Shown: one piece after another, positions 39,484-57,619 of the stretch | How positions within the stretch are numbered: the stretch's first letter is position 1 | Layout of the letters: each line of letters starts with the position of its first letter | Assembly (NCBI GenBank): GCA_029261965.1 | Contig: JAJDAH010000095.1 | Location: forward strand, 1-57,814 | Direction: 5' to 3' | DNA: 57,814 nucleotides | Source: Polyangiaceae bacterium | Lineage (GTDB): Bacteria > Myxococcota_A > Polyangia > Polyangiales > Polyangiaceae | Position numbers and translations under genes: made by a program | Notes under the pieces: model-generated | Seen by the model: the letters and a program-made list of their open reading frames with translations, nothing else | Told to the model about the DNA's origin: nothing | The model's database searches: none

Positions 39484-40242
39484 ATGAAGCTCCGAATCGT
39501 CACCTGGAACATCCACAAGGGTATCGGCGGCGTAGACCGCCGATATCGAATCGAACGCATCGTGGAGCTACTCGAGTCGTACGAGCCCGACGTCGCGCTA
39601 CTGCAAGAGGTCGCCGATCACACGCCGATGTCGCGGTTCGACTATCAGGTCGAAGTGCTTGCCGATAAACTCGGCATGCCTCACGCCGCTTTTCGCCCAG
39701 AGCACCGCTTCCGGGTCGGCGGCTACGGAAACGCCATTCTTTCGCGATGGCCCATCAGCGACGTGCATCACGTCGACTTGACCATCGGGCGCAGAAAGAA
39801 GCGTGGTGTTCTTCAAGCCAAAACGCGGGTCCGCCTGAATGGCGGCTCACGGACAGTGTTCCTTCATAACATGCACCTCGGTCTGGCCGGCTCCGAGCGC
39901 GGCCAACAACTCGAGAGGTTTCTCCGCTCGCATCCATTCGCGCGCCTGCATGAACGAACCCCCATCGTGGTCGGCGGCGATCTGAATGATCTTTGGGGCA
40001 GCCTCGGGCCGAAGTTCTTGCTCCCTCGAGGATTTCGGCGGGCGGGCGCGCTCATCAACACGTTCCCGGCCATCCTCCCCGTCCGGCCCCTCGACGCGAT
40101 CTTCGTCAGGGGGGATCTCACGGTCGGTCGCGCCTTTTGTCCGCGCAGCCGCCTCGCCGGACAGGCGTCGGATCATCGCCCGGTGATCGCCGAGCTCGAC
40201 CTCACGGCCATCAAGCGCCGACTCACTCGGCAGCGCGGCTGA
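39484..40242 (+). CDS. Endonuclease/exonuclease/phosphatase (EEP) family protein
   Basis: 252 residues from the ATG at 39484. EEP motifs: TWNIHKG (Asn9), LLQEVADH (Glu), GGDLNDLWG and the final SDHRPVIAEL catalytic DH pair. The fold covers DNase I, sphingomyelinase and phosphoinositide phosphatase types; sequence alone does not say which. No signal peptide. Its last 20 bases overlap the 3' end of the convergent membrane-protein gene. Adjacent to a divergent patatin, so a lipid-turnover role is possible but only inferred. Confidence 0.92.
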   Translation: MKLRIVTWNIHKGIGGVDRRYRIERIVELLESYEPDVALLQEVADHTPMSRFDYQVEVLADKLGMPHAAFRPEHRFRVGGYGNAILSRWPISDVHHVDLTIGRRKKRGVLQAKTRVRLNGGSRTVFLHNMHLGLAGSERGQQLERFLRSHPFARLHERTPIVVGGDLNDLWGSLGPKFLLPRGFRRAGALINTFPAILPVRPLDAIFVRGDLTVGRAFCPRSRLAGQASDHRPVIAELDLTAIKRRLTRQRG

Positions 40243-42601: not shown

Positions 42602-42673
42602 GCGGGAGTAACTCAGCGGTAGAGTGCCACCTTGCCAAGGTGGACGTCGAGGGTTCGAATCCCTTCTCCCGCT
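42602..42673 (+). tRNA. tRNA-Gly (anticodon GCC)
   Basis: Acceptor GCGGGAG pairs with CTCCCGC, D-arm CTC AGCGGTA GAG, anticodon arm CCACC TTGCCAA GGTGG, T-arm GAGGG TTCGAAT CCCTT. CCA is not encoded (CTC follows the discriminator T), unlike the tRNA-His in this window. Confidence 0.96.
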
Positions 42674-43056
42674 CTCTAGTCTATGGTGGCTGGGGCCCCA
42701 ACCCCAGCCACGTTTCGTTTGTCGTTTCACGGCTCTGGCGGCTGCGGCAGGCCAGCCACGCTTGTTTTCGATCAGCCAGCTAGCGTCACTCGCTCGCTGG
42801 CAGCCCCGTGAGGCGCGCCAGATCTTCGAGGTAGCAGCGGTGGGTGACCGCGCTCGGCTACTCGATGAGGTAGAAGCCTCGGTCGAATTCGCCGAGGTGT
42901 CCAGGTCGGCCCTGGGGGTCGGCATGCCGAACACGTCTCGGAAAATCAGGATGCGACCGCTCCTGCGAACGTACAGGTTGTCGTTGCGATCGAGCCAGGC
43001 CTCTTTGCATGCATCACATGCATCACCTCCGAGCCATGCATCGCTAACCGCACGGC
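42674..43056 (-). pseudogene. Gene-poor stretch after tRNA-Gly with possible decayed coding remnant
   Basis: No intact gene is seen. On the minus strand a segment reads AWLDRNDNLYVRRSGRIL and IFRDVFGMPTP in one frame. A neighbouring frame reads GHLGEFDRGFYLIE, a TAG stop, then HRCYLEDLARLTGLPASE and a stop. The protein-like flavour split across frames with an internal stop suggests a degraded gene, but the parent family is not recognised. A 9-base tandem repeat (TGCATCACA/TGCATCACC) lies near 43008-43027. The open frame crossing the tRNA on the minus strand (containing RRDSNPR) is the usual tRNA antisense artefact. Confidence 0.3.
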
Positions 43057-45984
43057 ATGGATGAGTCCAGGAGCCGGCGAGGGACGGTGCTTCTGGGTCA
43101 ACTCGCGGCCAATAGCCAAAAACGCTACCATCGGCGGCGGTTCGTGCCTCAGCCAGCCAGACCCCGCGCCCAAGAAGCGCGGCCTCTCATCGTCGTATCC
43201 AACGACTATGGGGAGCTGGGGCTCGCCATGTTCTTCCTCCGTGGGCAGGAGCTGTCGGGGAAGGTCGCTCTCGCGTTGCCGGACCGTCTCTACCCGGGGC
43301 ACGAACACCTGATCCCAGGCGCAACCCACCACTACTCGTCGGTCGCGGACCTGCTCGAGCTCGTCGACCAGCACGGGGCGAACCCGGTCCTGCTCTTCTC
43401 CGGCTACCTGTTCTCGAACAACGATCTGTTCACGCGAGACGAGCTAAAGCAGCTGGTCGAGCAGCTGCAACACCGCGGCTGCGTCGTCGGGACGAGCGAC
43501 CCCTTCCTCGGCCTCGCATCGACCTTGACGCGCGACGACGTCAAGCTCGACGTACCCATCAAACCGTGGCTGCGCCTGGTCTTGGGATGGCTCGAGCGCC
43601 GTTTCGTTCGAGATCTGTCGAAGGTGGCCGAGATTCTCAGCTCGACGGTGCATCTCTACCACGCGGCGCCGGACGAGTTCCTCCAGCGTCACGAGTTTCC
43701 GGCCGCGGCGTTCGCCAATCCTCGGCTAGCCACGCCACCGATCGAGTCGAGCGAAAAGCGCTGGCTGTTCGTGCTCGGCGCCGAAGACGCCCAGTGGGGC
43801 ACGTTCGCCGAAGGGGCCATGACCTCGCGAGGCGACCCGTGGTTAGTTGAGCGTCGCGCCACGGCAAAACCGAGCGACGGCGCTCCGCAGCCATTCATCG
43901 CAAGGGTCAGCTCGCTACTCGAACAGAGTGTGGCCGCGGGTCGACGACCGACGTTGATCGCTCCCGCCAAACTGATCGACACCCTGCCCCCCGAGTCCGC
44001 AGAGCTCGCCGAGCTCGTGCCCTTTTGCACCTTCCCGGAATTTCTCGACAGGCTGACCTCGGCAGAATGCGTGTTCTATTGGAACGTGATTTCCGCATCG
44101 ATCCTGCCCCGGCTCGTGCTTGCTCTGCCCGTGTTTTTTTTCGATCGCGGACACATGTCGCGCCTGGTCCGACCGATGTACGACCTAGCCGTCGACCAGC
44201 ACTACGGAGGCCGTGAGCCGACCTACTTGGATCCCGCCGAGCCACTCGATCCCGTCGAGCTCGGCAACGTCTGGGCGGAACACGGCTTGGGGAACCCAGC
44301 CGTGTTGGAACGACGCCGCGCCGAATCGCTCACTCCCGAGGAGTTGGTGCAACGTCTCGTGGAAGAACCCGACGCCACTTCGTGGCTGAAGTCAGTCAGA
44401 GCCGCGCCGTCGGCATCGGAGGATCTGGAAACCGACCTGGAGAAGGGTGCTCGTCTCGTCGAAGCGCAGCGCTGGCAGCAGGCTTTGCCCGTGCTCGAGG
44501 TCGCCGTCGACGAGCAGCCCGGCGACTCGCGGCCGCACGAGCTACTCGGTCGCGCGGCTGCGAAGGTAGGAGACTTCGAGCTCTCCGCTCGCCACTACGG
44601 CCGGGTAGTAGAGCTCGGTCGTGCCGATGCGAGCGTCATGATCGGGCTGGGAAACGCCTTGGCGTCGCTCGGTCGCCCCGAGGACGCTCGGAACGCGTAC
44701 CAAGCAGTAATAGAGCTCGAGCCGGACAACCACGAGGCGCACATCGAAGTTGGAGTGGCCCTCGAACAGCTCGGTCCGGCCGAGGCAGCAGTCAAGCACT
44801 ACCGGCGAGCCATCGAGCTCAATCCCGAGCAACCCGCGGCGTACGTCGAGCTCGGTCGGACCCTTTGCGCGCTTGGGCGGGCGGACGAGGCGGCAACACC
44901 AACCGAACGCGCCATCGAGCTTGGCGAAGCGACGCCTCTCTTGTACATGCGACTCGGGCGCGCCCACGCCACTCTCGGCAACGTCGGCCTCGCGGCTGCC
45001 GCCTATCAGCGGGCAGCGGCCATCGTACCGTTCTGGGCGGAAATCCAGCGGCGAGTCGGCGAGCTCTCCGCGGCCCGAGGCCGGTTCAAGGAAGCCGCGG
45101 CATTCTTCCTCCTCGCCGTCCAGGATCGGCCGATGACGGACGCGTCGACGAGCGACTACTATGGCGAACGCACCGAAGAACGGATCGGCCTCGTCATCAG
45201 GGTCGCCAGCTGGATCCCGGCGTACCTCGAGCTCGCCCGGCTGCTCGAGCACGATGCGCGCCCGAAGGAGGCAGCGCTCGTGCGAAGCCGGGTCGAAACG
45301 CTGAGGTCCGCTGCACCAGCGTCGCTTCGACCTGCTGCCGCGGGTGCGGCCCCTGACCCGCTGGGATCCTATCGGGAAGCGTCGGCACGTCTCGTCGGCC
45401 GGAGTTTCGCGTTTCTCGGCCTGGGGATCCGCGAGCCCGAAACGCTACGCATCTGGCGAGACCGTTTCCCGCACGCGACGATCGTCGGGATAGACGAGAG
45501 CAGCGTCGATTTGGACGACCCCACCGGGCGGGTCCGCGTTTATCAGGGAGATCCCGAAAAAAGACCCTGGTTGGACGGCATCACACGGGACGTCGCGCCC
45601 GACGGATACGAAATCATCGTCGACGACACGCTGCAGAGGGGACGAGGGGCACAAGCCACCTTCCAGCACTTGTTCCACCGGGCGCTGAAACCAGGCGGAG
45701 TCTACGTCGTGGAGGACTGGCAATCCGGCTATGTGCCCGACTGTCCACAGCTCGGGGCACCGCGAGTCAATCTCCCGGGGCGCGAGCTCGGAATGCACGA
45801 CTTCGTCAAAAACCTCGTGGACAACGCGGAGGCATACGCGCGCGTCGTGTTCGCCGAAAACCGGGTATTCGTTTTCAAAAAGACCGAGCAGGCCGCGCAG
45901 AGCACCGAAGTGCCCCTCCGGCGTGCGCGAAGACCGGCGCCGACCTATGACGAGAGCTCGACGAAAAACGACGCGACGAAATGA
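43057..45984 (+). CDS. DYGEL-domain / TPR / methyltransferase-fold fusion protein
   Basis: 975 residues in three parts. (1) Residues about 44-400: an alpha/beta domain with VVSNDYGELGLAMFFL, LLFSGYLF, TSDPFLGL, FYWNV, FFFDRGHM and GGREPTYL. It is shared with the protein at 48267-50357; I do not recognise a named family, and two Rossmann-like halves suggest a GT-B glycosyltransferase. (2) About 460-690: six or so TPRs (AYQAVIELEPDNHEAHIE, HYRRAIELNPEQPAAYVE). (3) About 780-945: a SAM-methyltransferase fold of the macrocin/MycE-like type (RFPHATIVGID, VYQGD, IIVDDTLQ, LKPGGVYVVEDW). The usual DDGSH-type motif is DDTLQ here, so activity is uncertain. It overlaps the next gene as ATGA. The start is chosen as the first ATG near the domain; its ribosome site is poor. 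Confidence 0.85.
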   Translation: MDESRSRRGTVLLGQLAANSQKRYHRRRFVPQPARPRAQEARPLIVVSNDYGELGLAMFFLRGQELSGKVALALPDRLYPGHEHLIPGATHHYSSVADLLELVDQHGANPVLLFSGYLFSNNDLFTRDELKQLVEQLQHRGCVVGTSDPFLGLASTLTRDDVKLDVPIKPWLRLVLGWLERRFVRDLSKVAEILSSTVHLYHAAPDEFLQRHEFPAAAFANPRLATPPIESSEKRWLFVLGAEDAQWGTFAEGAMTSRGDPWLVERRATAKPSDGAPQPFIARVSSLLEQSVAAGRRPTLIAPAKLIDTLPPESAELAELVPFCTFPEFLDRLTSAECVFYWNVISASILPRLVLALPVFFFDRGHMSRLVRPMYDLAVDQHYGGREPTYLDPAEPLDPVELGNVWAEHGLGNPAVLERRRAESLTPEELVQRLVEEPDATSWLKSVRAAPSASEDLETDLEKGARLVEAQRWQQALPVLEVAVDEQPGDSRPHELLGRAAAKVGDFELSARHYGRVVELGRADASVMIGLGNALASLGRPEDARNAYQAVIELEPDNHEAHIEVGVALEQLGPAEAAVKHYRRAIELNPEQPAAYVELGRTLCALGRADEAATPTERAIELGEATPLLYMRLGRAHATLGNVGLAAAAYQRAAAIVPFWAEIQRRVGELSAARGRFKEAAAFFLLAVQDRPMTDASTSDYYGERTEERIGLVIRVASWIPAYLELARLLEHDARPKEAALVRSRVETLRSAAPASLRPAAAGAAPDPLGSYREASARLVGRSFAFLGLGIREPETLRIWRDRFPHATIVGIDESSVDLDDPTGRVRVYQGDPEKRPWLDGITRDVAPDGYEIIVDDTLQRGRGAQATFQHLFHRALKPGGVYVVEDWQSGYVPDCPQLGAPRVNLPGRELGMHDFVKNLVDNAEAYARVVFAENRVFVFKKTEQAAQSTEVPLRRARRPAPTYDESSTKNDATK

Positions 45985-47150
45985 AACGTTCGAGCGAATC
46001 CTTCCGCGCCATTCTCGACGAGCTCTGCATCGAGCGCGCCGCCGGCGACCAAGTGTACGCCACGAGCGGCACCGCCTACATCGATCTCTTCACGGGAAAC
46101 GGCACCACGCTGCTCGGGCACGTCGACCCGACGGTGCGCGATGCCGTGCGAGCGCAGCTCGAGCGCGTTTGGATCGCCGGGGCCTTGGAGACCCCCGTCG
46201 GCATCGAAGCCCGAGCTGCCGTCGAGAGATTTTTTCCTTCGTCGCACAAGGTCAGGGGTTTCTATTCGGCCGGGGCTGAAGCCGCCGAGTTCGCGCTACG
46301 AGTGGCGCGAGAGACGACGGGGCGCCGCGGCGTCCTGGGGTTCGAAGGTTGCCTGCACGGAAAGTCGATGGCCACGGCGGCGCTCGGCTGGCCGAACGAG
46401 CTGGTTCACCTGCCGGACTTTCGACGGTTGCCCTACGTGCCCCAGTGCGCGGAGAAAGAAATTCTCGAACGCGCCGCCCATGCGCTGGCCGAGGAGTCCT
46501 TCGCTGCAGTGTTCATCGAGCCGCTGCAAGGATCCGCGGGGGGCCACTTGGCCTCGAGGGCCTTTTTCACCGAGTTGTCCGAACTGTGTCGTCGACACGG
46601 GACGCTGCTCGTCGTCGACGAAATCTTCACGGGTTTTCATCGAACCGGACCCGCGTTTCTGCATCAAGAGCTCGGCCTGACGCCGGACGTCGTGCTCGTC
46701 GGCAAGGCCATGGGGAGCGGCTTTCCCGTTTCTGGCGTCGTCGTTCACGAGAAGTACGCCATCGAAGCGTCGATGCTACCCGGCAGCACGTTCTCGGGAA
46801 ATCCACTCGCGGCCGCTGCCGTCGTCGCGACGCTCCGGCGACTCCGGGAGTTCGACGTGAGTGCCAAGGTCGCCGCAGTCGGCAACACCATCCAACAGGA
46901 GCTGGCGCCGGTGCAGCAAGCAGGCATCGCGCTCCGGGGACGGGGGGCGCTTTGGGTGCTGGAGGTCGGAACGGCGGCCGTCGACCCAGTGATGCGACGC
47001 ATCGTCCGAGGCGGCGTCATCGCGTCGCCCACGGCGCGCTACATCCGCCTTCTGCCGTCCGCGACGATTTCACAGGAACGCCTCTCCCGGGCTTGCCAGG
47101 TCATCCGCGAGGCGTGCCTCGACGTGCAAAAGGACGTCGAGACGCGATGA
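45981..47150 (+). CDS. Class III PLP aminotransferase (GSA/ornithine-type)
   Basis: 389 residues. Motifs: YSAGAEAAEFALRVAR, FEGCLHGKS, VVDEIFTGFHRTG (Asp213) and VLVGKAMGSGFPVSGV (Lys242, Schiff base). These enzymes move an amino group to an aldehyde or keto acceptor such as a semialdehyde or keto sugar, or isomerise GSA. The start overlaps the upstream stop as ATGA and its stop overlaps the next start as ATGA, so all three genes are coupled. A second, unrelated aminotransferase follows directly, which points to a pathway that puts amines on two positions or two substrates. Confidence 0.9.
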   Translation: MKRSSESFRAILDELCIERAAGDQVYATSGTAYIDLFTGNGTTLLGHVDPTVRDAVRAQLERVWIAGALETPVGIEARAAVERFFPSSHKVRGFYSAGAEAAEFALRVARETTGRRGVLGFEGCLHGKSMATAALGWPNELVHLPDFRRLPYVPQCAEKEILERAAHALAEESFAAVFIEPLQGSAGGHLASRAFFTELSELCRRHGTLLVVDEIFTGFHRTGPAFLHQELGLTPDVVLVGKAMGSGFPVSGVVVHEKYAIEASMLPGSTFSGNPLAAAAVVATLRRLREFDVSAKVAAVGNTIQQELAPVQQAGIALRGRGALWVLEVGTAAVDPVMRRIVRGGVIASPTARYIRLLPSATISQERLSRACQVIREACLDVQKDVETR

Positions 47151-48304
47151 GCCACCAAACCGAACGAATCGCCGCCGCCCGGCCCCGATTTTTAGAGGAA
47201 GACATCGCCGAAATTTCCAGAGACGTGGAAGCCGTCTTGAGATCGGGCCGGCTCGTTCTCGGCCCGCGCACCACCGAGCTCGAACGACGGTTCGCCGACT
47301 ACGTGGGTGTCGAACACGCGGTGGCGGTCAGCTCGTGCACGGCGGCGATTCAAATTAGTCTGCGTTTCATCGGCGTGCGCGGCCGCGAGGTCATCGTTCC
47401 GACCAACAACTTTCCCGGGATCCTGAGCGCGGTGCTCTACGAAGGCGGGACGCCAGTCCTCGCCGACATGGACCCGACGACCTTCGGACCCGACGTCGAG
47501 GACATCGCCTCGAGGGTCACGCCGAACACCGCAGGTGTCATCGTGACCCACATCGGGGGTCTCGTGTGTCCCGAGATTGGCCAACTCCGATCGGTCTGCC
47601 AGGCCAAGGGCCTGTTCCTGCTCGAAGACGCGTCACATGCGCACGGCGCGTCGATCGATGGTCAGAACGCCGGAAGCCTTGCGGATGCCGGTTGCTTCTC
47701 TTTCTACCCGACCAAGATCATGACCACGGGTACCGGCGGAATGCTGACGACTCAGCACGCCGAGCTCGCCGAACTCGCACGATCTCTCAGGCATCACGGG
47801 CAAGGCGGGCGTCGGAACGAATTCGTCCGCCTTGGAAATGATTGGTGCCTCGGTGAAATCCAAGCGGTGCTCGGTCTTCATCAATTGAAGCGCGTGGACG
47901 AAAACGTCGAGCACCGAAACCGCGTCGTCGATTGGTACCGAGAAAGCCTCGCCGACGCCGATTGGCTCACCATCCCCTCGCCCCCGCCCAACGCCCGCCA
48001 CGCTTACTACAAGCTACTCGCCGTACTCGACGAGAAAATCGACGCGAACCGGTTTCGCCGAATCCTCGACGAGGAGTACGGCATCGAGAACGGCAACCTC
48101 TACCTGCCGCCGTGCCACCTGCAGCCGGTCTTCCTCGAATCCCTCGGTCATGAAAAGGGCGCGTTTCCCCGGGCGGAACGCATGCTCGAACGCCAAGTCT
48201 GTCCTCCCGTGCACTCGAGCCTCGGCCGAGACGACGTGAACCGGGTCGTCGAAGCCCTACGTGCCGTCAAAAGCCGATTGAGCCCTGAGCCTGCTCGCGA
48301 CTGA
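47147..48304 (+). CDS. DegT/DnrJ/EryC1/StrS-family aminotransferase
   Basis: 385 residues from the ATG at 47147; the longer open frame starting at 46349 is antisense-like run-in and is rejected. Family motifs: LVLGPRTTELERRFADYVG, AVAVSSCTAAIQISLR, LLEDASHAHGA (Asp161) and CFSFYPTKIMTTGTGGM (Lys190). These proteins aminate keto-sugars on nucleotide carriers for surface glycans and antibiotics. ATGA overlap with the upstream gene shows coupling. Its last 38 bases overlap the 3' end of the convergent TPR gene. Confidence 0.94.
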   Translation: MSHQTERIAAARPRFLEEDIAEISRDVEAVLRSGRLVLGPRTTELERRFADYVGVEHAVAVSSCTAAIQISLRFIGVRGREVIVPTNNFPGILSAVLYEGGTPVLADMDPTTFGPDVEDIASRVTPNTAGVIVTHIGGLVCPEIGQLRSVCQAKGLFLLEDASHAHGASIDGQNAGSLADAGCFSFYPTKIMTTGTGGMLTTQHAELAELARSLRHHGQGGRRNEFVRLGNDWCLGEIQAVLGLHQLKRVDENVEHRNRVVDWYRESLADADWLTIPSPPPNARHAYYKLLAVLDEKIDANRFRRILDEEYGIENGNLYLPPCHLQPVFLESLGHEKGAFPRAERMLERQVCPPVHSSLGRDDVNRVVEALRAVKSRLSPEPARD

Positions 48305-50357
48305 CGCTCTTGGCGGGTCGGTTACGCAGTACCCGCGCGAGCATCTCGGCGGGCGCTGGAGCTCGGGCGAAACCGCGCGCCACGCGCTCGGCGTCCTCGG
48401 AGTCGGCCCGGGCTTGCTCAGTCAACTCGGCGAGATCGAGCCGTTGGTCTTGGCTGAGATAGGTCGGCTCGCGCCCTTGGTAGTACCACTCGACCACGCG
48501 CTCGTAGAGCGGCGTCACGTTGCGGACCAAGTGACCCCGGTCGAACATGAAAAATGGCTGCCGATTCATCAACCTGAGCAACATCGAGTGCGAGACGACG
48601 TTCCAATAGAACGCGAACTCGGCATCGATCAGCAGTGTCAGGAACTTCTTGAAGGGGCAAAACGTCAACAGGGTCACGCCATCAGTCGGAGGCATCTTGG
48701 CAATGACCGCCTGCACGAGATCGTAGGGCGCGACAAAAACCGGATGTCTTCCGGCGTCGAGGGTCGCGTGAATCTTGTGAATCACGGTGTCGACGAAACG
48801 CTCCTTGCCGTGGATCATGATCTGCGCCTCGTAGTCCCTCGAGGCGAGGATGAAGAGCCACCGCGGCCTCTCTGCGGAAGCGGTTTCGCTAGCCCCGGGA
48901 CCGGTGGGCCCGTCTGGACACACCAAGCTCGAGTTGAAGAACGAAAGCACGCGGGCATCGCTCGCGGCCTCGGCATCGAGCGCAGCGGGATACGTCGGAT
49001 ACAGGTGCTCGAGATCCGCGACGATCCGCGACGACCCGAAGAAGTTGGTCAACAAGCGCTCATCTTGTTTCTGCTTTTCTCGAACCAAATCGGCCGACGC
49101 GTCTGCCGGGATATCCACCGAAACCGTCGTGGACGTCCCGAGGTTGGACAGCAGTCCCAGAAACGGATCCGTCGTGACCACGCGACAGCCACGCGATTTC
49201 AGCTGAGGAACGAGTTCGTCGAGCTCGTCGAGCGACATGACTCCGTGCAGCGAAAAAAGATAGGCGGAGCACAAGAACACGATTTCCGGCTTCTCACGAT
49301 CGACAGCGCGCACGACGTCCTCGCGCGAGGTCGCCGGGTGCGTTCTGCCGGGCAGCACGTGGCGGTTGTGCAGAAAAAGCCGCTCGGACAGAAGGAGCGT
49401 GGACCTGGCCGCGAGACCTTGCGCGAACAGAAAAAACATCACCGTCGTCAGCTCACCGTAGTCGCTGTCCATGACGAACATGAGTCGTGGGCCGGACGGC
49501 GGCTCCGTGGGTTCAGACCAACCGCCCGAAACCCAAGCCTCGATGTGAGCATCCATCGGACCGATCGGTGCCCGCGACCAGAGAGGGTTGAGCTGATTGG
49601 CCCGGTGAACCGCCGCAGAAGCCTCCTCCCATCGATGAAGTCGGCAGAGCGCGTCGCCGAGCTCCCGGTACAGCCGCGACGCGTTCTGTGCTCGTTCGAA
49701 CGCAGCTTCGCGGGTCTCGTCGGCCCCGGGCTCGCCTTCCAAGGTTTCGCGAATGGTCTGGCGATAGGCGGAAATCGAATCCTCCCATCGTCCCGACCGC
49801 GTCGAAGCGTCGGCCAACCTCGCACACACACCGGCCGCGCTCGGGTCGAGTTCGCGAGCCCGACGGTATTCATCCGCGGACTCCGCCCAACGATTCAAGT
49901 GAAACAGCGCCTCCGCCAGGTTGGCGTGCCACGACGCCTTCCCCTGCTCTTGCGCGATCGCCGCTCGGAAGACGCCGACCGCATCTTCCCAGCGCTCGAG
50001 ATGCATGAGGGTGTGCCCGAGGTTGATACGAATCGAGCAATCGTCCGGCGCCTCGCGGATCGCCTCTTCGTAGGGGGTCACCGCTTCGGCCCAACGCTCG
50101 GCGCGCATCAGCGCATCGCCGAGGTTGGCGCAAACCCCGAGCACGCTCGGATCGAGATCGCGCGCCCCCGCATAGGCTGCGGCCGCCTCCGTCCAGCGCC
50201 CGAGGTGGCAGAGGGCGTGGCCCATGTTGACGTGGCAAACGGTGGCCTCCGGCCGGCTGCGGATGACCTCGTCGTAGGCATCGGCGGCCTCCTGCCAGCG
50301 CCCGGCCTGGAGCAGAGCGTCGCCGCGCTGATGACTTTCGCCCCAACTATCGGACAC
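48267..50357 (-). CDS. TPR / DYGEL-domain fusion protein
   Basis: 696 residues from a GTG at 50357 with a GGAG site 8 bases away. This start overlaps the upstream stop by 11 bases; an earlier ATG at 50522 lies deep inside that gene and is rejected. Residues about 1-270 are seven or so TPRs (AADAYDEVIRSRPEATVCHV, AVTPYEEAIREAPDDCSIRI). Residues about 285-640 are the same unnamed domain as in the 975-aa protein at 43 kb: VMDSDYGELTTVMFFL, FLCSAYLFS, TTDPFLGLLS, FYWNVVSHSM, FFMFDRGHLVR and GREPTYL. The order is reversed (TPR first) and no methyltransferase follows. TPR-plus-enzyme order resembles O-GlcNAc-transferase layout, but homology is not claimed. Confidence 0.87.
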   Translation of the reverse strand: MSDSWGESHQRGDALLQAGRWQEAADAYDEVIRSRPEATVCHVNMGHALCHLGRWTEAAAAYAGARDLDPSVLGVCANLGDALMRAERWAEAVTPYEEAIREAPDDCSIRINLGHTLMHLERWEDAVGVFRAAIAQEQGKASWHANLAEALFHLNRWAESADEYRRARELDPSAAGVCARLADASTRSGRWEDSISAYRQTIRETLEGEPGADETREAAFERAQNASRLYRELGDALCRLHRWEEASAAVHRANQLNPLWSRAPIGPMDAHIEAWVSGGWSEPTEPPSGPRLMFVMDSDYGELTTVMFFLFAQGLAARSTLLLSERLFLHNRHVLPGRTHPATSREDVVRAVDREKPEIVFLCSAYLFSLHGVMSLDELDELVPQLKSRGCRVVTTDPFLGLLSNLGTSTTVSVDIPADASADLVREKQKQDERLLTNFFGSSRIVADLEHLYPTYPAALDAEAASDARVLSFFNSSLVCPDGPTGPGASETASAERPRWLFILASRDYEAQIMIHGKERFVDTVIHKIHATLDAGRHPVFVAPYDLVQAVIAKMPPTDGVTLLTFCPFKKFLTLLIDAEFAFYWNVVSHSMLLRLMNRQPFFMFDRGHLVRNVTPLYERVVEWYYQGREPTYLSQDQRLDLAELTEQARADSEDAERVARGFARAPAPAEMLARVLRNRPAKSVSREQAQGSIGF

Positions 50358-51858
50358 CTTGGGACTCCGCTGGCTTCGTGGCTGGCGGACAAAAGTCACA
50401 ACCGGCACAAAAATCGTCCATTTCCCGACGGAGATACCGCTCGAGCTTGCTCCGATGCATGTCGCGCAGGCTCTCACTCTTCGCCGAGCCGCACGACGTG
50501 ACTCGCTGGTAGTCCATCGCACAAAGGCGCATCTCTCCGTCGGCGGAAATGAAGATCATGCTCTCGGCGACCTTGCACAACCGATCTTCTTCGTGGATCT
50601 CGCTGAAAACGTCGACCAGGACGAGATCGTCTCCCTCGTAACGCCGCTCGTGTTCCCGCATGTCCACGGACTTCACTGCCGGCGACAGCAAGCCGGCGCG
50701 GTTGTTCAGCGGATGTAGCCAGATCCGACTCGGACGCTTCGGCCGCCAAAAGCTCACGAAATCGGCGACCTCGTGCTGGTTCAAATCGCAGACGACGAAG
50801 CTCACGTGCACGGTAATCTCGGGGTGATGGCGATCGCGTGCTTCGAGAATGCTCTCCACGTTGGCGACGGTTCGGTCGAAGCCCTTGAGCCGCATGACCT
50901 CACGATGAGTCTGTGCGGTGTTGGCGTTGAGACTGAAATTCACACCGCACAACCCGAGCGCCACGAGTCTTTCGAAACGCTCGACATCGAGGCGGCCACC
51001 GTGAGTCGTCATCTCGACCTTGGTGCCGGTGGCGGCCAGTATCTCGACGATCCGCTCGAGCTCAGGATGCAGAGTCGACTCGCCGATTCCACAGAGCACG
51101 ATCAGGTCCACTGGGTTCTTTTCGATGTCCCGCGCGAGGCTCTCGACGACATCCAGTGAGATCAGTCGCTTCTTGTCGGGCATGGCAGCTCGTGGGCAAA
51201 AGCCACAAGCCGCGTCGCACGCCGACGTCACCTCGAGATCCACCGTCACTTCCGCGAGGTTGCCGGGTTCGGTGCTCGCACGCCGATGGCCAGCTTTCGA
51301 CAGGGCAATCGCGACCTTGCGCCGGGCCTCGTCGGCGCCGGGGTCGACGTCGAGGGCGCGTTGGTAGGCGGCGGCAGCATCCTCCCAACGTTTCAATCGA
51401 CAATAGGCATCGCCGAGGCTCACGTGAGAAGACGCCACCCCCGGCTCGAGGTCGACGGCGCGACCGTACGACGACGCCGCGGCATCCCAACGACCCAGGT
51501 GCGAGAGTGCGTGACCTCGATTGAGGTGGCACGCGGCGTCGTCGGGTCGCTGTCGAAGGCACGCGTCGTATTCGACGACTGCTTCTTTCCAGGCACTCGT
51601 CTTCAGGAGCGCATTGCCGAGATTCACGCGAGCCTCGACGATGCCCGGGTCCAGGTCGAGGGCACGTCGATATGCGGCGGCTGCCTGCTCCCAGTGCCCG
51701 AGATGGCTGAGGCTGTGACCGAGGTGGACATGCGAGGCCGAAGCGTCCGGCCGGCACCGAATCGCGCTCCGGTACGCCACGGCAGCTTCTTCCCACTGAC
51801 CCGAACGCAATAGTGAGGCGCCGCGATCATGGTGCACGCTCCACGGCGCTCCATCCAT
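50347..51858 (-). CDS. TPR / radical SAM / SPASM-like fusion protein
   Basis: 503 residues from the ATG at 51858, chosen because MDGAPWSVHHDRGASLL aligns with the start of the next TPR protein; a TTG at 51894 is possible. Residues about 1-190 are five TPRs. The radical SAM core begins CDAACGFC (Cys214, 218, 221) with LCGIGESTLHPELE and a TTHGG-type strand. The C-terminal cysteines (CKVAES, LCAMDY, CAGCDFC) form a SPASM-like auxiliary cluster. Such enzymes modify peptides or sugars by radical chemistry. Fusion of TPRs to radical SAM is unusual. Translationally linked to the following TPR/DYGEL gene, divergent from the GMC gene. Confidence 0.9.
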   Translation of the reverse strand: MDGAPWSVHHDRGASLLRSGQWEEAAVAYRSAIRCRPDASASHVHLGHSLSHLGHWEQAAAAYRRALDLDPGIVEARVNLGNALLKTSAWKEAVVEYDACLRQRPDDAACHLNRGHALSHLGRWDAAASSYGRAVDLEPGVASSHVSLGDAYCRLKRWEDAAAAYQRALDVDPGADEARRKVAIALSKAGHRRASTEPGNLAEVTVDLEVTSACDAACGFCPRAAMPDKKRLISLDVVESLARDIEKNPVDLIVLCGIGESTLHPELERIVEILAATGTKVEMTTHGGRLDVERFERLVALGLCGVNFSLNANTAQTHREVMRLKGFDRTVANVESILEARDRHHPEITVHVSFVVCDLNQHEVADFVSFWRPKRPSRIWLHPLNNRAGLLSPAVKSVDMREHERRYEGDDLVLVDVFSEIHEEDRLCKVAESMIFISADGEMRLCAMDYQRVTSCGSAKSESLRDMHRSKLERYLRREMDDFCAGCDFCPPATKPAESQGVR

Positions 51859-51980
51859 GTGCGGGTCTCGATCTGTCTCCACGTCTACCGCCAAAGCTAC
51901 CTGAGAAAATGGCGAGATTCCAACCGCCGCCCATCGCGTCGGCTGCGCTCGACCTAGACAATGTGTAGGCTTCGCTTCCC

Positions 51981-53591
51981 ATGCACCCGAGCGAGCGCAT
52001 TCCCGCGAAACCGGAAGCCGAGGAATGGGACGTCATCGTCATCGGGTGCGGTATGGGCGGTGGCACACTCGGCTACGAGCTCGCTCGACTCGGCCGCCGA
52101 GTGCTGTTCCTGGAAAAAGGGCATTTGCTGCACGGTGAGTCCGATGCGACCGGCGCACCCGAGCCGGGACTCGCCCAAGAGCTGGACGAGCGCTTGAGAA
52201 CCGCGCGCTGGCCGCTCCGTCTGCGAGGAAAAACGACCTTCGGCGACGTGGAATTCTACGCACCCCTCGGGTGCGGCTCGGCGGGCTCGACGAGCCTCTA
52301 CGGAGCGCAGCTCGAGCGATTCCGGCCCTCGGATTTTCAGCCTCGGGCGAGCTATCCGAAAGCGGCGGACTCTACGCTCCCCGATGAGTGGCCGATCTCC
52401 TACGAGGACATGCTTCCGAGCTACCGCCGCGCGGAAAGTCTATTCCAAGTGTGCGGAACCGACGATCCGCTCTGCCCGGATCCCAAAGGCGAGCTGAGGG
52501 AACCCCCGCCTCTGAGCGAACGCGACTCGCTGCTCCGCGACATCTTCACGGATTCGGGTTTGCACCCCTACCGCTCGCACGTCGGCATGAAGTACGTGCC
52601 GGGCTGCGAAGAGTGCCCCGAGATGTGCCCGCGGCCTTGCAAGAGCGACGCTGGCAACATCTGCGTACTGCCCGCGCTGCTCCAGCATGGCGCCCACATC
52701 CTGCCGCGCTGCGAGGTCACCCGAATCGACGCCAAGGGGCGACGCGCGACCGGCGTGCAAGCGCGTTGGCAAGGCCGGAACATCGAGCTCCGAGCGAAAG
52801 CCGTAGCAGTGGCCGCTGGCGCGTACATGACCCCGGTTCTACTCCTTCGTTCGAAGTCGCCCGACTGGCCCGACGGCCTGGCGAACAGCTCCGGTCTCGT
52901 TGGACGCAACCTCATGCTGCACGTCAGCGACTTTTTCACCGTCGACCCCGGCGAATTCCGTTCGGCCGAGGGGCCACGCAAATCGTTGTCGATGACCGAC
53001 TTCTACAACGACGACGGACACAAGCTCGGCGCGTTGCAGTCCGCCGCCTTTCCGCTGGTGCCCCCCTTCATCGAGGCCTACCTCCGGTACATCGACCAGC
53101 GCGACCCCCAGTGGTGGCGCGAGCACACCGCTCCCCTGATCCCCCAGCTCGCTCAGGCCGCGGCCGGGGCGTTCCAAACGGCGAGCGTCATGGTGACGAT
53201 CGTCGAAGACCTACCGTACTTCGACAACCGAATCATCGTCGACGAAAACGCGCCCAACCAAATGCGGTTCGAATATCGCTACACCGACGAGCTCGACGAG
53301 CGCAGTGAACGGTTCCGAAAGCGAGTGACGCGGCTGCTCGGCTCGAAACTCCGCGTGGTGAACGTGACCTGGGGCAAGAACAACATCAACTACGGCCACG
53401 TTTGCGGGACGTGCCGCTTTGGCAACGACGCGAGTTCGAGCGTCCTGGACCGGAACAATCGGGCCCACGACCTCGACAATCTGTACGTCGTGGATGCCTC
53501 GTTCTTCCCGTCGAGCGGTGCCATCAATCCGAGCCTCACGGTGGCCGCGAACGCCCTTCGGGTCGGTAGCGCGATACACGAAGCGCTATGA
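51981..53591 (+). CDS. GMC-family oxidoreductase
   Basis: 536 residues. FAD-binding DVIVIGCGMGGGTLGYEL (17-34), LFLEKG, the GGSxG-like GCGSAGSTSLYG (98-108) and the C-terminal GHVCGTCRFG...SSGAINPSLTVAANALR are typical of glucose-methanol-choline oxidases and dehydrogenases. The His-Asn style active-site end (NPSLT) is present. A Cys cluster CEECPEMCPRPC (209-220) is an insertion that could bind an Fe-S centre or zinc, and is often seen in sugar/alcohol dehydrogenases of this subgroup. Substrate unknown; a sugar or alcohol is likely. It leads a two-gene unit with the radical SAM gene 21 bases downstream. Confidence 0.92.
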   Translation: MHPSERIPAKPEAEEWDVIVIGCGMGGGTLGYELARLGRRVLFLEKGHLLHGESDATGAPEPGLAQELDERLRTARWPLRLRGKTTFGDVEFYAPLGCGSAGSTSLYGAQLERFRPSDFQPRASYPKAADSTLPDEWPISYEDMLPSYRRAESLFQVCGTDDPLCPDPKGELREPPPLSERDSLLRDIFTDSGLHPYRSHVGMKYVPGCEECPEMCPRPCKSDAGNICVLPALLQHGAHILPRCEVTRIDAKGRRATGVQARWQGRNIELRAKAVAVAAGAYMTPVLLLRSKSPDWPDGLANSSGLVGRNLMLHVSDFFTVDPGEFRSAEGPRKSLSMTDFYNDDGHKLGALQSAAFPLVPPFIEAYLRYIDQRDPQWWREHTAPLIPQLAQAAAGAFQTASVMVTIVEDLPYFDNRIIVDENAPNQMRFEYRYTDELDERSERFRKRVTRLLGSKLRVVNVTWGKNNINYGHVCGTCRFGNDASSSVLDRNNRAHDLDNLYVVDASFFPSSGAINPSLTVAANALRVGSAIHEAL

Positions 53592-53612
53592 ATGCGATAA
53601 TGGGAATCAAGA

Positions 53613-55427
53613 ATGGCTGACCTGAAAATCCTCCAAGAGTTCAACGAGTTCCGAGGCTCGCCCCCCGGCACGACAATCTGTCCCGCGCCGCTGATCAACC
53701 TGCACTTTTCGCAGCTAGGGGTCGTCACGGCCTGTTGCTTCAACCGCACGCACGTCCTCGGCACGTACCCCAAAGACTCCGTCGACACGATTTGGAACGG
53801 GCAGGCTGCCAAGGAGCTCCGCGAAGCCCTCGCGAAAAACGACCTCTCGAAGGGTTGCGAGAAATGCATGCAGCAAATCGAGGCACGGGATTTCGGCGGC
53901 TCGCACGCAGCCTTCTACACGATCTTCGCACGGGGCATGGCGGAGCGTCAAAAGGAGCTCGGCATCGCGCCCGACGTCGACCAATCGGTCACCCCGATGC
54001 CGATGAAGCTCGAGTTCAACATTCACAACGCGTGCAACCTCGAGTGCATCATGTGTCACGGGCTGGCGTCCTCTTCGATCCGCTCGCGTCGAGAATCCCA
54101 GCCGACGATGCCAAACCCATACGACGACGAGTTCGTCGACCAGCTCGCCCCCTACTTGCCCCACGTCGTGGAAGCCGATTTCATGGGTGGAGAGCCGTTC
54201 CTGGTGCCTGCCTATCGACAGCTTTGGGAGCGTATCGCCGAGGTGAGCCCGAAGACCAAGGTGCTCATCCTGACGAACGGAACGACCGTCGACGACAAGA
54301 TCCGCGCGCTCCTCGAAAAAATGAACTGCTCGATGCACATGTCGATCGACTCCGACGTCAAGGAGACCTACGAGACGATTCGCAAGAACGCTTCCTTCGA
54401 AGAGGTGATGGAGAACGCCAACTACTTCCGCGAGATGATGCCACCGGAGCACCCGCTGGTTTATCGCTACTGCCCGATGCGCATCAACTGGCGAGAGATG
54501 CCGCAGACGGTTCGCAACTGCAACGAGAACAGGACCATTCTCCACTTCAATCAGTTGGATTCGCCCATCAATTTCTCGCTGGCGACTCTGCCCTACGACG
54601 AGCTCGAAGAGGTCGTGGCGTATCTGGATGAAAACGGCCCAGAAGAGCCGACCACCGACATCGAGCGGGCGAACCACGGGAACTGGGTCGAGATGGTGGC
54701 CAGGTTCCGCGGCTTCTTAGAGCCAAGTAATCGACTGAATGGGCTCATCGCACGACTCGACACCGCCGCCGCCGTCGTGAGCCAGTACTCCGGTGGAATC
54801 GAAGGGCAGTCCAAGAAACGCCTCGCGATCATCGAGACTGAAGGTCCGCTGACCGAGGCGGTGAAGAGCTTCTTGATCACTCGACTCAATGTGGATCAAG
54901 GCGTGGCTAACGAACCGGAGATCCCCGACCACATCCTCGAAAGGTTCGAGGGCCGCACCAAGGGTCTTCTCGCATTCGTCGACCCAACTCCGCCGGACAT
55001 GTTCGTCAGAGTCTTCCTGAACGAGCTCCTCCGCACCTACTCGGGCGTGTGGGGAGTTTACGAGCCGCACGACTTCGGTGCGTTCGAGCGAATCCTCGCC
55101 TTTGCGCCCTGGGTCGCAGCGCTGCCCGATCCAAAAGGAGCGATTCGCGCCATGGTCGCCACTTCGCCGGAGGAGCTCTACCGGCTGTTCGGGCTGGTGA
55201 CATCCACCGACGAGGCCAAAACGCGGTTCGGAGCCGATCGCCCGATCGCAGCAATCGAAGAACCCAAAGCGATCGAAGAACCCAAAGCGGACGAGGCTCG
55301 CGACGATTTGCCCACGCCGTATCGACGCTCCCCTCGCAAGGAAACGTTGGCAGCAGTGGTCGCGGGCGCGATGATCGACAAGCTCGCGGGCTTGATCATC
55401 CGGGTGGCGGACGGTCCGCGCCGCTGA
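53613..55427 (+). CDS. N-terminal-twitch radical SAM protein
   Basis: 604 residues with a GGGAATC site. Residues 1-90 hold an N-terminal twitch/SPASM-like cluster (Cys23, Cys41-42, CEKC at 82-85). The radical SAM motif CNLECIMC (Cys141, 145, 148) follows, with FMGGEPFLVPAY and LTNGT. Auxiliary cluster before the core is the order of the N-twitch radical SAM family. Residues about 390-560 are an extra domain without recognised motifs, then a linker with two IEEPKA repeats and a hydrophobic C-terminal patch (LAAVVAGAMIDKLAGLIIRV) that may touch the membrane. It is 21 bases after the GMC gene. Confidence 0.9.
   Translation: MADLKILQEFNEFRGSPPGTTICPAPLINLHFSQLGVVTACCFNRTHVLGTYPKDSVDTIWNGQAAKELREALAKNDLSKGCEKCMQQIEARDFGGSHAAFYTIFARGMAERQKELGIAPDVDQSVTPMPMKLEFNIHNACNLECIMCHGLASSSIRSRRESQPTMPNPYDDEFVDQLAPYLPHVVEADFMGGEPFLVPAYRQLWERIAEVSPKTKVLILTNGTTVDDKIRALLEKMNCSMHMSIDSDVKETYETIRKNASFEEVMENANYFREMMPPEHPLVYRYCPMRINWREMPQTVRNCNENRTILHFNQLDSPINFSLATLPYDELEEVVAYLDENGPEEPTTDIERANHGNWVEMVARFRGFLEPSNRLNGLIARLDTAAAVVSQYSGGIEGQSKKRLAIIETEGPLTEAVKSFLITRLNVDQGVANEPEIPDHILERFEGRTKGLLAFVDPTPPDMFVRVFLNELLRTYSGVWGVYEPHDFGAFERILAFAPWVAALPDPKGAIRAMVATSPEELYRLFGLVTSTDEAKTRFGADRPIAAIEEPKAIEEPKADEARDDLPTPYRRSPRKETLAAVVAGAMIDKLAGLIIRVADGPRR
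55254..55289 (+). repeat. Perfect 18-bp tandem duplication
   Basis: Two exact copies of an 18-base unit beginning ATCGAAGAACCC encode IEEPKA-IEEPKA in the linker of the radical SAM protein. Confidence 0.9.
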
Positions 55428-56703
55428 GTGACGAACGAAGCTCCTTTTCGAAGTGAGCCACGAAACCGTCGACGTCCACTGGGTCAGCGCCGAGCAACGT
55501 GAACGCACGTGCCAGCTCCGGCTCGCTCTCGGCGAACAGCTTCTTTGATTGCTCGAGAACTCGCGTGTCGTACGGCGTGTAGAGATGGTGCACGAACTTC
55601 GGGTAGTAGCATCGCATGCAGATCGTATCGACGTGCGCGAGTTCCTCCGACTCGGTTCCCGCGAACGCCATTCGAGACTTGACGTAGCGATCCCCGTTCC
55701 ACACGTTCTCGAAGCTCACTTCTCCTGCCCGCATCGTGCCGAAGTCGTCGTCCTCTTTCGCAGCGGCGCAGCACGGCGAGACCGGACCGCCGGCAGTCAC
55801 CACGGAGTAGCTGTAGTGCCAGGCGCACGCCCCCGGATACGCCGACGGGATCCCCTTCGGCAGTGGGCTCCAGGACGCGGCGAGTTCGTGGTCCATGAAA
55901 TAGCCGCTTCGCCCGGCCGCTTCCCATTCCGAGGCTAGCTTCGCCGCTTCTTCGTCGGAGGTCTGAGGCTCCTCGTCTTTCCGGTAGCTCGGCAGCCAGC
56001 TCTTTTCGTGGACGAAGGCCTCGTTGCGCTCGAACTTTATGCCGATGCTGTCTGAAAACTCCTCGGCGGCGCCCACCTCGTTCTCGTTGTGGCTGAAAAC
56101 CAGAAACTTGTAGGTGATCTCGGTGGCCGTCCCCAAGCGATCCCTCGCCTTCGCCATGCGCGAGAGGTTTTCTTTGACGAGCTCCACGTTGCCGCCGACG
56201 CGATGCACCTCGTAGGCCTCCTGGGTGAAGCCATCGACGGAACACGTCAGTCGATCGAGTCCGCAATCCATGAGCGCGTCGACGCGTTCGTCGGAGAGCT
56301 TGAGCGACAAATTGGTGTGCACGACGGTCTCGATGTCGAGGTCCGCAGCGCGGCGAATGAACGTTGCCAGATGTTGGTTCAGAAGCGGCTCGCCGTAGTT
56401 GTAGAAGTTCACCAAGAAGAGGTAGGGACCCATCTCGTCGAGCAGCGAGTCGTACAACTCCGGGCTCATCTTGCTTCGATCGGTCCGCACGACTTTCAGC
56501 GGATTCTCGCGGACTCGGCGGCTCTCGTTTTCGATGCCCGTCGGACAGGTCGGGCACTTCAACTGGCAAATGTCGGACGGATCGATGCTGATGTAGTACG
56601 GATACGAGTCCACACGCACCGCGCCCGTGTACATGGCGTACTTCGCCTTCAGGAAGTTCACGAACGCTTCGCGGTTCGTTTTTCTGACCGCGGTGTCCGT
56701 CAC
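55396..56703 (-). CDS. Radical SAM / SPASM-domain protein
   Basis: 435 residues from a GTG at 56703 that overlaps the upstream stop (GTGA) and has an AAGGA site; longer frames run into the sulfotransferase gene and are rejected. The core motif is CQLKCPTC (Cys46, 50, 53), preceded by YYISIDPSDI, with NFYNYGEPLLN and HTNLSLKL. C-terminal cysteines (GACAWHY, CCAAAKEDDD, CMRCYYP) mark a SPASM auxiliary cluster. Such enzymes modify peptides, sugars or alcohols; the substrate is unknown. It is coupled to the sulfotransferase gene, and its 3' end overlaps that of the N-twitch radical SAM gene by 32 bases. Confidence 0.93.
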   Translation of the reverse strand: MTDTAVRKTNREAFVNFLKAKYAMYTGAVRVDSYPYYISIDPSDICQLKCPTCPTGIENESRRVRENPLKVVRTDRSKMSPELYDSLLDEMGPYLFLVNFYNYGEPLLNQHLATFIRRAADLDIETVVHTNLSLKLSDERVDALMDCGLDRLTCSVDGFTQEAYEVHRVGGNVELVKENLSRMAKARDRLGTATEITYKFLVFSHNENEVGAAEEFSDSIGIKFERNEAFVHEKSWLPSYRKDEEPQTSDEEAAKLASEWEAAGRSGYFMDHELAASWSPLPKGIPSAYPGACAWHYSYSVVTAGGPVSPCCAAAKEDDDFGTMRAGEVSFENVWNGDRYVKSRMAFAGTESEELAHVDTICMRCYYPKFVHHLYTPYDTRVLEQSKKLFAESEPELARAFTLLGADPVDVDGFVAHFEKELRSSLSGADRPPPG

Positions 56704-57548
56704 GGCTCGTCCTTCGCCGATATCCCGGGGCTTGTCAACGCGCTGGCATCGACGACCTCGGTCATATTGCCGTCTTTCGCCCAATCCGGGCCGAGCTCGT
56801 ACCCAGCCTCGACAAAAGGCTCGCCGGCCACGTCTTCGAACACTCGGCGTTGCTCCTGGGTCCAATCGTGCCAACGCGGCGTCAACTTGTCGCGGCTCAC
56901 CTCCGCTGGGAACGACGAGTTGATCGGCTTGGCGTTCCGAATGAAATCGACCCCAGACTGCGCCGGAGCCTCACCGAGGAACTTGAAGGCTTTCGCGAGC
57001 TCTGCCGCCGTGTCCGTGATGACGGCTTCGTACCGAACGGTCACGAGCTTGCCGCCGTCGGGTCCGTCGCAAAACTTCCGGGCGGCGGCCACGGATTGTG
57101 CCCAGGTGGCGCACGCCTCGTCGTGCTTCATGGGGTTGACGAAGTTTCGTAGAGATTCGACGACTTGCCGACCGTCTCGCAGCATGTAGACGAAGCGAGC
57201 GTCGGGGAAAAATTCGAGCATGGTGTGCATGTGCAGGGTGTACTGCGGCGTCTGCTCGACCCAGCGTTTGCCGCCGGAACGTTCGCAGTAGAGCGCGTTC
57301 ACCCCCAGCCCGATGAAACGGGCGAACTCCCGAAGTTCGACATTCTTTTGACTCAACCAGTGAAAGTCCCCTCGACTCGTACCGAACTCGTGAACCTCGG
57401 CGATGGCGCGATGCAGAGGAACCAGAAAGTCGCTCTCGGGCCCTCCCCAGAGTCCCGGGTTCTGGCAGAGAGCCCACTGCATCATGCTCGTCCCGGAGCG
57501 AGGCGCTCCTACGACGAATATCGGGCTGTCACAGACAGAGACCTTCAT
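56700..57548 (-). CDS. PAPS-dependent sulfotransferase family protein
   Basis: 282 residues from the ATG at 57548 (a GTG two codons earlier is possible). The 5'-phosphosulfate loop FVVGAPRSGTSMM lies at about residue 11-22 and the 3'-phosphate site YMLRDGRQVVESL at about 121-133. It would move sulfate from PAPS to a hydroxyl or amine of a sugar, lipid or peptide; cytoplasmic, no signal. It opens a two-gene unit with the SPASM radical SAM gene and is divergent from a GT2 gene. Together these suggest sulfation of a small carbohydrate-containing product. Confidence 0.92.
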   Translation of the reverse strand: MKVSVCDSPIFVVGAPRSGTSMMQWALCQNPGLWGGPESDFLVPLHRAIAEVHEFGTSRGDFHWLSQKNVELREFARFIGLGVNALYCERSGGKRWVEQTPQYTLHMHTMLEFFPDARFVYMLRDGRQVVESLRNFVNPMKHDEACATWAQSVAAARKFCDGPDGGKLVTVRYEAVITDTAAELAKAFKFLGEAPAQSGVDFIRNAKPINSSFPAEVSRDKLTPRWHDWTQEQRRVFEDVAGEPFVEAGYELGPDWAKDGNMTEVVDASALTSPGISAKDEP

Positions 57549-57619
57549 GCTCACCGACTCTACTACTTTCGTACGCCCTTGGCCGCTCGCAGGCGGGCTG
57601 GTAGTTAGTCCCCCGGGCG

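Follow-up and report, generated by a model that had tools for sequence, protein, structure and literature searches.

An undescribed domain shared by two TPR fusion proteins of a Polyangiaceae bacterium: a candidate GT-B-like glycosyltransferase family

What is the domain that two fusion proteins encoded close together in a Polyangiaceae bacterium have in common, and what might it do? The two proteins, here called A and B, are encoded on contig JAJDAH010000095.1 of assembly GCA_029261965.1, the whole 57,814 nucleotides of which we analysed and refer to as the window. Each carries an array of tetratricopeptide repeats (TPRs), and an original prediction, made from the DNA letters alone, had proposed that they also share a domain of no named family, perhaps a new glycosyltransferase. 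We found that A and B have one domain of about 355 residues in common (361 amino acids in A and 355 in B), and that a third copy exists in a genome from a different class of the phylum. The reading to which we give slightly better than even chances is that the domain represents an undescribed GT-B-like, TPR-linked glycosyltransferase family acting in a sugar-tailoring cassette.

A domain common to proteins A and B

Protein A (975 residues; 43057..45984, forward strand) has the order new domain, TPRs and MycE-like methyltransferase domain, as judged from its open reading frame (ORF), its Pfam TPR matches, its similarity to B and a phmmer search. The domain copy in A covers residues 42-402 (43180..44262, forward) and is followed by a TPR array recognised by Pfam TPR families (about residues 455-690; 44419..45126, forward). 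In protein B (48267..50357, reverse strand; ORF, Pfam TPRs and match to A), the domain (residues 291-645 of the 696; 48423..49487, reverse; placed by similarity to A and to the third copy) comes after the TPRs (49587..50327, reverse; approximate limits from Pfam TPR families). The longest ORF of B (751 residues) begins at 50522, within the upstream gene. Because a GGAG precedes the GTG at 50357, this GTG is likely the true start, which gives a protein of 696 residues. The range of 43057-50357 proposed for the pair ends at that start codon, but it also takes in two aminotransferase genes.

BLASTP aligned A with B at 133 identities in 380 columns (35%; E 2e-57). The real pair scored 195 bits, whereas 1000 shuffles of the domain of B gave an alignment in 354 cases with a top score of 26.2 bits, which confirms the shared domain. 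Seven strings (DYGEL, MFFL, YLFS, DPFLGL, FYWNV, FDRGH and GREPTYL) occur once in each protein and in identical order. They start at residues 50, 58, 117, 148, 340, 362 and 385 of A, and at 354, 362, 421, 452, 638, 660 and 683 of B (numbered in the 751-residue ORF), so that positions in the two proteins differ by 304 residues for the first four strings and by 298 for the other three. The motif set had thus been predicted correctly except in one detail, A having VFFFDRGH and not FF(F/M)FDRGH. The core motif of the putative C-lobe reads FYWNVISxSILPRL...FFFDRGH in A (44074..44154, forward) and FYWNVVSHSMLLRL...FMFDRGH in B (48531..48611, reverse; from the alignment with A and the third copy).

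Profile searches assigned the domain to no family. Neither the A nor the B copy matched any Pfam, PHROG or PADLOC family at E<=10. NCBIfam at E<=1 gave nothing within the domain except a 23-residue chance match in B (E 0.19), and PDB sequence searches gave nothing better than E 0.33. The sole Pfam match of the third copy was Peptidase_M50 (E 0.1). The predicted absence of a named family therefore holds for Pfam, PHROG, PADLOC, NCBIfam and PDB sequence searches. Full-text searches of the literature, judged on listings and the openings of abstracts, met no description of the domain.

The domain is also rare among the genomes searched. Of 317 genomes from the class to which the window belongs, only the window's own was found to have it (likewise one of 144 in a smaller search). 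It was also found in one of 90 genomes from a second class of the phylum (genome G438), and in none of 52 from a third. In a phylum-wide sample of 377 genomes, only the same two contained it. The first look scored up to 6 candidates per genome in the 317-genome search and up to 5 in the 377-genome sample, so a divergent copy of the domain could be missed. Weak matches (E 0.02-1) in five further genomes of the 377 (E 0.02-0.1) and in 26 of 183 genomes besides the window's own were short and partial and were discarded. Ten phage records matched A, the best place in each being only the TPR or methyltransferase part, and a plasmid collection had no match to the domain of B. Pattern scans of viral and genome contigs gave 16, 23, 30 and 195 stretches, none of which was confirmed; these scans used exact-peptide patterns and possibly left out records near the window.

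The third copy (L032:1495-2550 in G438) lies in a protein with the order TPRs then domain, as in B. Its domain is 49.3% identical to that of B and 37.6% identical to that of A, and the full-length protein is 37% identical to B over 725 columns. Since the third copy is nearer to B than to A and shares its domain order, the split between A and B probably predates that between B and the G438 protein. DYGEL, SxYLF, DPFLG, FYWNVxSxSxLxRL and FDxGH are invariant in all three copies; within FYWNV...FDxGH, this includes FYWNV, both serines and the arginine. Across the three copies, which are 38-49% identical, a total of 39 invariant positions hold D, E, H, K, R, N, Q, S, T, Y, W or C. The third copy has MYLV for MFFL, YLFP for YLFS, FDHGH for FDRGH and GRMPEFH for GREPTYL. 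As a family mark, the predicted motif set is thus kept in its core, while MFFL, the arginine of FDRGH and GREPTYL are limited to the two window copies.

Predicted fold and structural matches

The original prediction had read a two-lobed, GT-B-like layout into the domain. We compared AlphaFold models of it with known structures using Foldseek and VIA. The input alignment consisted of only two sequences, the A and B domains, with either B or A placed first. In both models, strands and helices alternate in two halves. With the B-first model, Foldseek gave 82 matches at E<=0.001 (top E 6.8e-6). Among the best 50 of these, 48 were glycosyltransferases or nucleoside diphosphate-sugar (NDP-sugar) 2-epimerases, which we take to belong to the GT-B fold class; the others were 8ahe_A, whose title bears no protein name, and the unrelated 9grx_1. 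VIA reached a maximum Z of 11.1 (6.4 Å over 263 residues); for models that match nothing clearly, the tool gives 7-8 as the usual top Z. Its best 50 rows contained 45 two-lobed enzymes of GT-B type (by title or by known fold) and again 8ahe_A, these 46 having Z of 9.1-11.1 over 231-277 residues. In a viral structure library searched with the same model, the top row was a glycosyl transferase (E 4.4e-6), with more glycosyltransferases below it and unrelated replicases between. The fold evidence therefore leans to GT-B, short of proof.

Even if the fold is GT-B, the domain may not be a transferase of sugars, since GT-B-fold enzymes include non-transferases. The most serious alternative is that it is another enzyme of the same sugar pathway, for example an NDP-sugar epimerase resembling the non-hydrolysing UDP-GlcNAc 2-epimerases, a pyruvyl transferase or a polyol-phosphate transferase. 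UDP-GlcNAc 2-epimerases do head the B-first structural lists (ranks 1-2 in Foldseek and 1-5 in VIA), the teichoic acid polymerase TagF is at VIA ranks 6 and 11, and the gene context described below would suit any sugar-modifying enzyme. However, a model of low confidence is a poor guide to rank within a single fold class. The A and B domains lack any Pfam match, the Epimerase_2 profile of UDP-GlcNAc 2-epimerases matched none of the three copies and, to our knowledge, epimerases are usually not fused to TPRs. We regard this alternative as unlikely but worth keeping in sight.

Several features of the models weigh against the glycosyltransferase reading. The confidence of both is poor (pLDDT 51.3 with pTM 0.39 for the B-first model; pLDDT 53.0 with pTM 0.48 for the A-first model), and the Foldseek matches of the B-first model have TM-scores of only 0.26-0.40 on query length and root-mean-square deviations of 9.5-18.3 Å. 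The VIA list also has three threonine dehydrogenases, matched over just 99-103 residues, whose Z of 9.4-10.2 is on a par with that of the GT-B rows. The A-first model gave only two Foldseek matches at E<=0.001, in a heterogeneous list with CysG, KaiC and UDP-glycosyltransferases from plants. In VIA, its 28 top rows covered 89-107 residues and were single Rossmann lobes (threonine dehydrogenases, biotin-dependent carboxylases and a phosphoribosylamine-glycine ligase), the first glycosyltransferase following at rank 29 with Z 8.7. These results could mean that the domain is an unrelated Rossmann-like one with another function, for example with a dehydrogenase- or carboxylase-like N-lobe, and that the weakness of the model produced a spurious match to GT-B. 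We consider this improbable, because the B-first model aligns in both lobes with GT-B enzymes over more than twice that length and because sugar-pathway genes adjoin the domain at both loci. On balance, the predicted GT-B layout finds partial backing: the matches of the B-first model are mostly GT-B enzymes, those of the A-first model only weakly so.

Compared with the GT-B enzymes that best match the B-first model (UDP-GlcNAc 2-epimerase, EarP, TagF and the GT1 antibiotic glycosyltransferases), the domain appears to have the same two alpha/beta halves in order, but it has no detectable sequence similarity to them and carries other motifs, the comparison being made through a low-confidence model. 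The TPR fusion, together with a possible resemblance in the loop after the first strand, raised the possibility of a GT41 enzyme of the O-GlcNAc transferase/SPINDLY type (PF13844), which likewise joins a TPR array to a GT-B part; in A the order is reversed, the domain standing before the TPRs. The Glyco_transf_41 profile PF13844 had no match in the domain, nor, at E<=0.001, anywhere in the genome of the window. In hhalign, the domain compared with 8 GT41 sequences (from three genomes of the window's taxonomic order) at a probability of at most 0.5%, with a three-row profile and no positive control. The GT41 identity was thus not upheld by Pfam or by hhalign with its thin profile. EarP, the arginine rhamnosyltransferase of elongation factor P (PF10093), is at ranks 3, 4, 9 and others in the Foldseek list of the B-first model and may resemble the domain in its first-strand loop, but its profile had no match in any of the three copies; the EarP identity was rejected as well. 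PF10093 was found in none of 57 genomes and in none of 14 controls, a count that says nothing about its absence.

Gene neighbourhoods of the domain

The C-terminus of A contains a class I methyltransferase domain (45442..45819, forward; phmmer against PDB) homologous to 3ssm (listed molecule Methyltransferase; E 6.5e-11), which we take to be MycE, and to the demethylmacrocin O-methyltransferase 8ia9 (E 1.7e-5). The acidic VIED segment of MycE is kept as VVED, but DDTLQ stands in place of DDGSH, presumably an active-site segment in MycE. Because of this replacement, the domain may be inactive or different in mechanism. A also differs from MycE in being fused to TPRs and to the new domain. The ATG of a class III pyridoxal phosphate (PLP) aminotransferase gene (45981..47150, forward; PF00202 E 1.2e-69; Lys in VGK) overlaps the stop codon of A (ATGA), and its own stop is overlapped in the same way (ATGA) by the likely ATG start, at 47147, of a DegT/perosamine-synthase-like sugar aminotransferase gene (47147..48304, forward; PF01041 E 4.6e-100). 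The best PDB matches of the latter are the perosamine synthetases 3dr7 and 3bn1 (E 5e-56). With these overlaps, the gene of A and the two PLP aminotransferase genes look like one tight operon, which converges on the gene of B.

At the third locus, we scanned the 19 ORFs neighbouring the domain protein. They encode an ABC-transporter pair, a GT4-type protein, a GT2-GT1 fusion, another GT2 protein, a PMT_2 protein and a TPR-TylF O-methyltransferase, together with SGNH-hydrolase-like proteins, a sulfatase, an amidohydrolase, a DUF3604 protein, a molybdopterin oxidoreductase, a GMC oxidoreductase and a twitch-like radical SAM protein. The domain appears rare and undescribed, in a familiar setting of TPR-fused sugar enzymes in glycan loci.

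The GMC oxidoreductase and the twitch radical SAM protein have counterparts in the window. The GMC oxidoreductase there (51981..53591, forward; profile match; PDB glucose dehydrogenase E 8.5e-29) is 62% identical to that of the third locus (L037:9733-11418), and the twitch/SPASM radical SAM protein (53613..55427, forward; PF04055 and NF033640, the latter at 163.1 bits, slightly below the cut-off of 170) is 51% identical to its counterpart (L037:8025-9665). Relatives of the twitch protein at E<=1e-40 were found in two of 359 genomes (up to 3 candidates scored per genome), the same two that have the domain. The window's genome has a second relative elsewhere, at L069 (G000:C221:7406-8410), 34% identical. 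GMC relatives were found in 6 of 282 genomes. Around the four besides the window and G438, the stretches read contained neither the domain nor a relative of the window's twitch radical SAM protein, so a GMC relative does not by itself predict the domain. The domain, the GMC oxidoreductase and the twitch radical SAM protein together look like a cassette, on two instances.

Other genes of the window lie on either side. Upstream of B and overlapping it is a TPR-radical SAM/SPASM protein gene (50347..51894, reverse; PF04055, PF13186, TPRs and CxxxCxxC). Another radical SAM/SPASM gene (55396..56874, reverse; profile match; ORF limits, start uncertain) and a sulfotransferase gene (56700..57554, reverse; PF13469 E 1.2e-27) follow the twitch gene, so that 50347-57554 holds, within about 7 kb and beside the domain proteins, a sulfotransferase and three distinct radical SAM/SPASM proteins, of which one is fused to TPRs. 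The contig ends at 57814, and the cluster may therefore be incomplete. Directly ahead of the cluster is a tRNA-Gly gene (42602-42674); a genomic island there was considered and set aside, as there is no step in GC content at that place. Before it, the protein at 40223-42514 has a weak match to the NCBIfam arabinofuranosyltransferase NF041481 (59.9 bits against a cut-off of 1050), and at the other end an ORF at 3-9587 of at least 3195 amino acids extends past the contig end.

A proposed role in sugar tailoring

We propose that the domain is probably a sugar transferase of a new kind, involved in making a surface glycan or a natural product. A nucleotide-activated sugar would be held between two Rossmann-like lobes, of which the N-lobe would bear the DYGEL loop after its first strand and the C-lobe would place FYWNVxSxSxLxRL...FDxGH around the nucleotide. 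The domain would pass the sugar to a growing glycan or natural-product core, and the attached TPRs may keep the acceptor or the partner enzymes in place. The donor in the window could be an amino sugar built by the class III and perosamine-synthase-like aminotransferases, a proposal prompted by the overlap of the gene of A with the first and of the first with the second. The MycE-like domain of A would O-methylate the sugar, and the GMC oxidoreductase and the twitch radical SAM enzyme may oxidise or otherwise remodel it. Oxidation followed by amination, with a GMC oxidoreductase and a class III aminotransferase, is familiar from aminoglycoside pathways. Of this picture, the analysis establishes the common domain, its scarcity in the genomes searched, its conserved neighbours and what these are homologous to, whereas the GT-B fold, the transfer activity, the substrate, the sequence of steps and the part played by the TPRs are inferred.

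The guess of a TPR-linked glycosyltransferase fits this gene context, with glycosyltransferases at the third locus and aminotransferases and a MycE-like domain in the window. Besides the model features given above, the same reading has to bear four other points. No catalytic residue is identifiable by homology. No catalogued glycosyltransferase family was matched by sequence in the profile libraries scanned, and the hhalign comparison with GT41 is no more favourable. The genome counts are only as complete as a first look that scored a limited number of candidates in each genome. Finally, none of the 19 ORFs at the third locus encodes an aminotransferase, so the link to amino sugars comes from the window. 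A catalytically dead GT-B-like domain, which together with the TPRs would act as a scaffold or bind the acceptor in the manner of accessory proteins whose fold is GT-like, is if anything a shade less probable than the unrelated Rossmann domain: TPRs are scaffolds, the accessory secretion protein 5vaf appears at VIA rank 41 of the B-first list, which also speaks against an active transferase, and the loss of DDGSH from A leaves room for other inactive parts, but the 39 invariant positions, several of them in motif blocks, argue for a working site as far as three sequences can suggest it.

Beyond the glycosyltransferase reading itself, we tentatively suggest a more specific picture, which we hold to be a little less likely than not to be right in full. 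The domain would represent a new family of glycosyltransferases, not covered by the profiles scanned, that travels in one cassette together with an extended twitch radical SAM protein and a GMC oxidoreductase. In A, a glycosyltransferase and an O-methyltransferase would share one TPR scaffold, its gene overlapping with those of the two aminotransferases, as one assembly that makes and attaches an unusual sugar, oxidised, aminated and methylated.

If the glycosyltransferase reading is true, the domain adds to the known enzymes a family of glycosyltransferases missed by the sequence models scanned. It would also mark out a rare cassette for sugar tailoring, made up of a GMC oxidoreductase, a radical SAM protein and a transferase. 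The alignment of the three copies supplies the invariant residues with which the domain can be tested.

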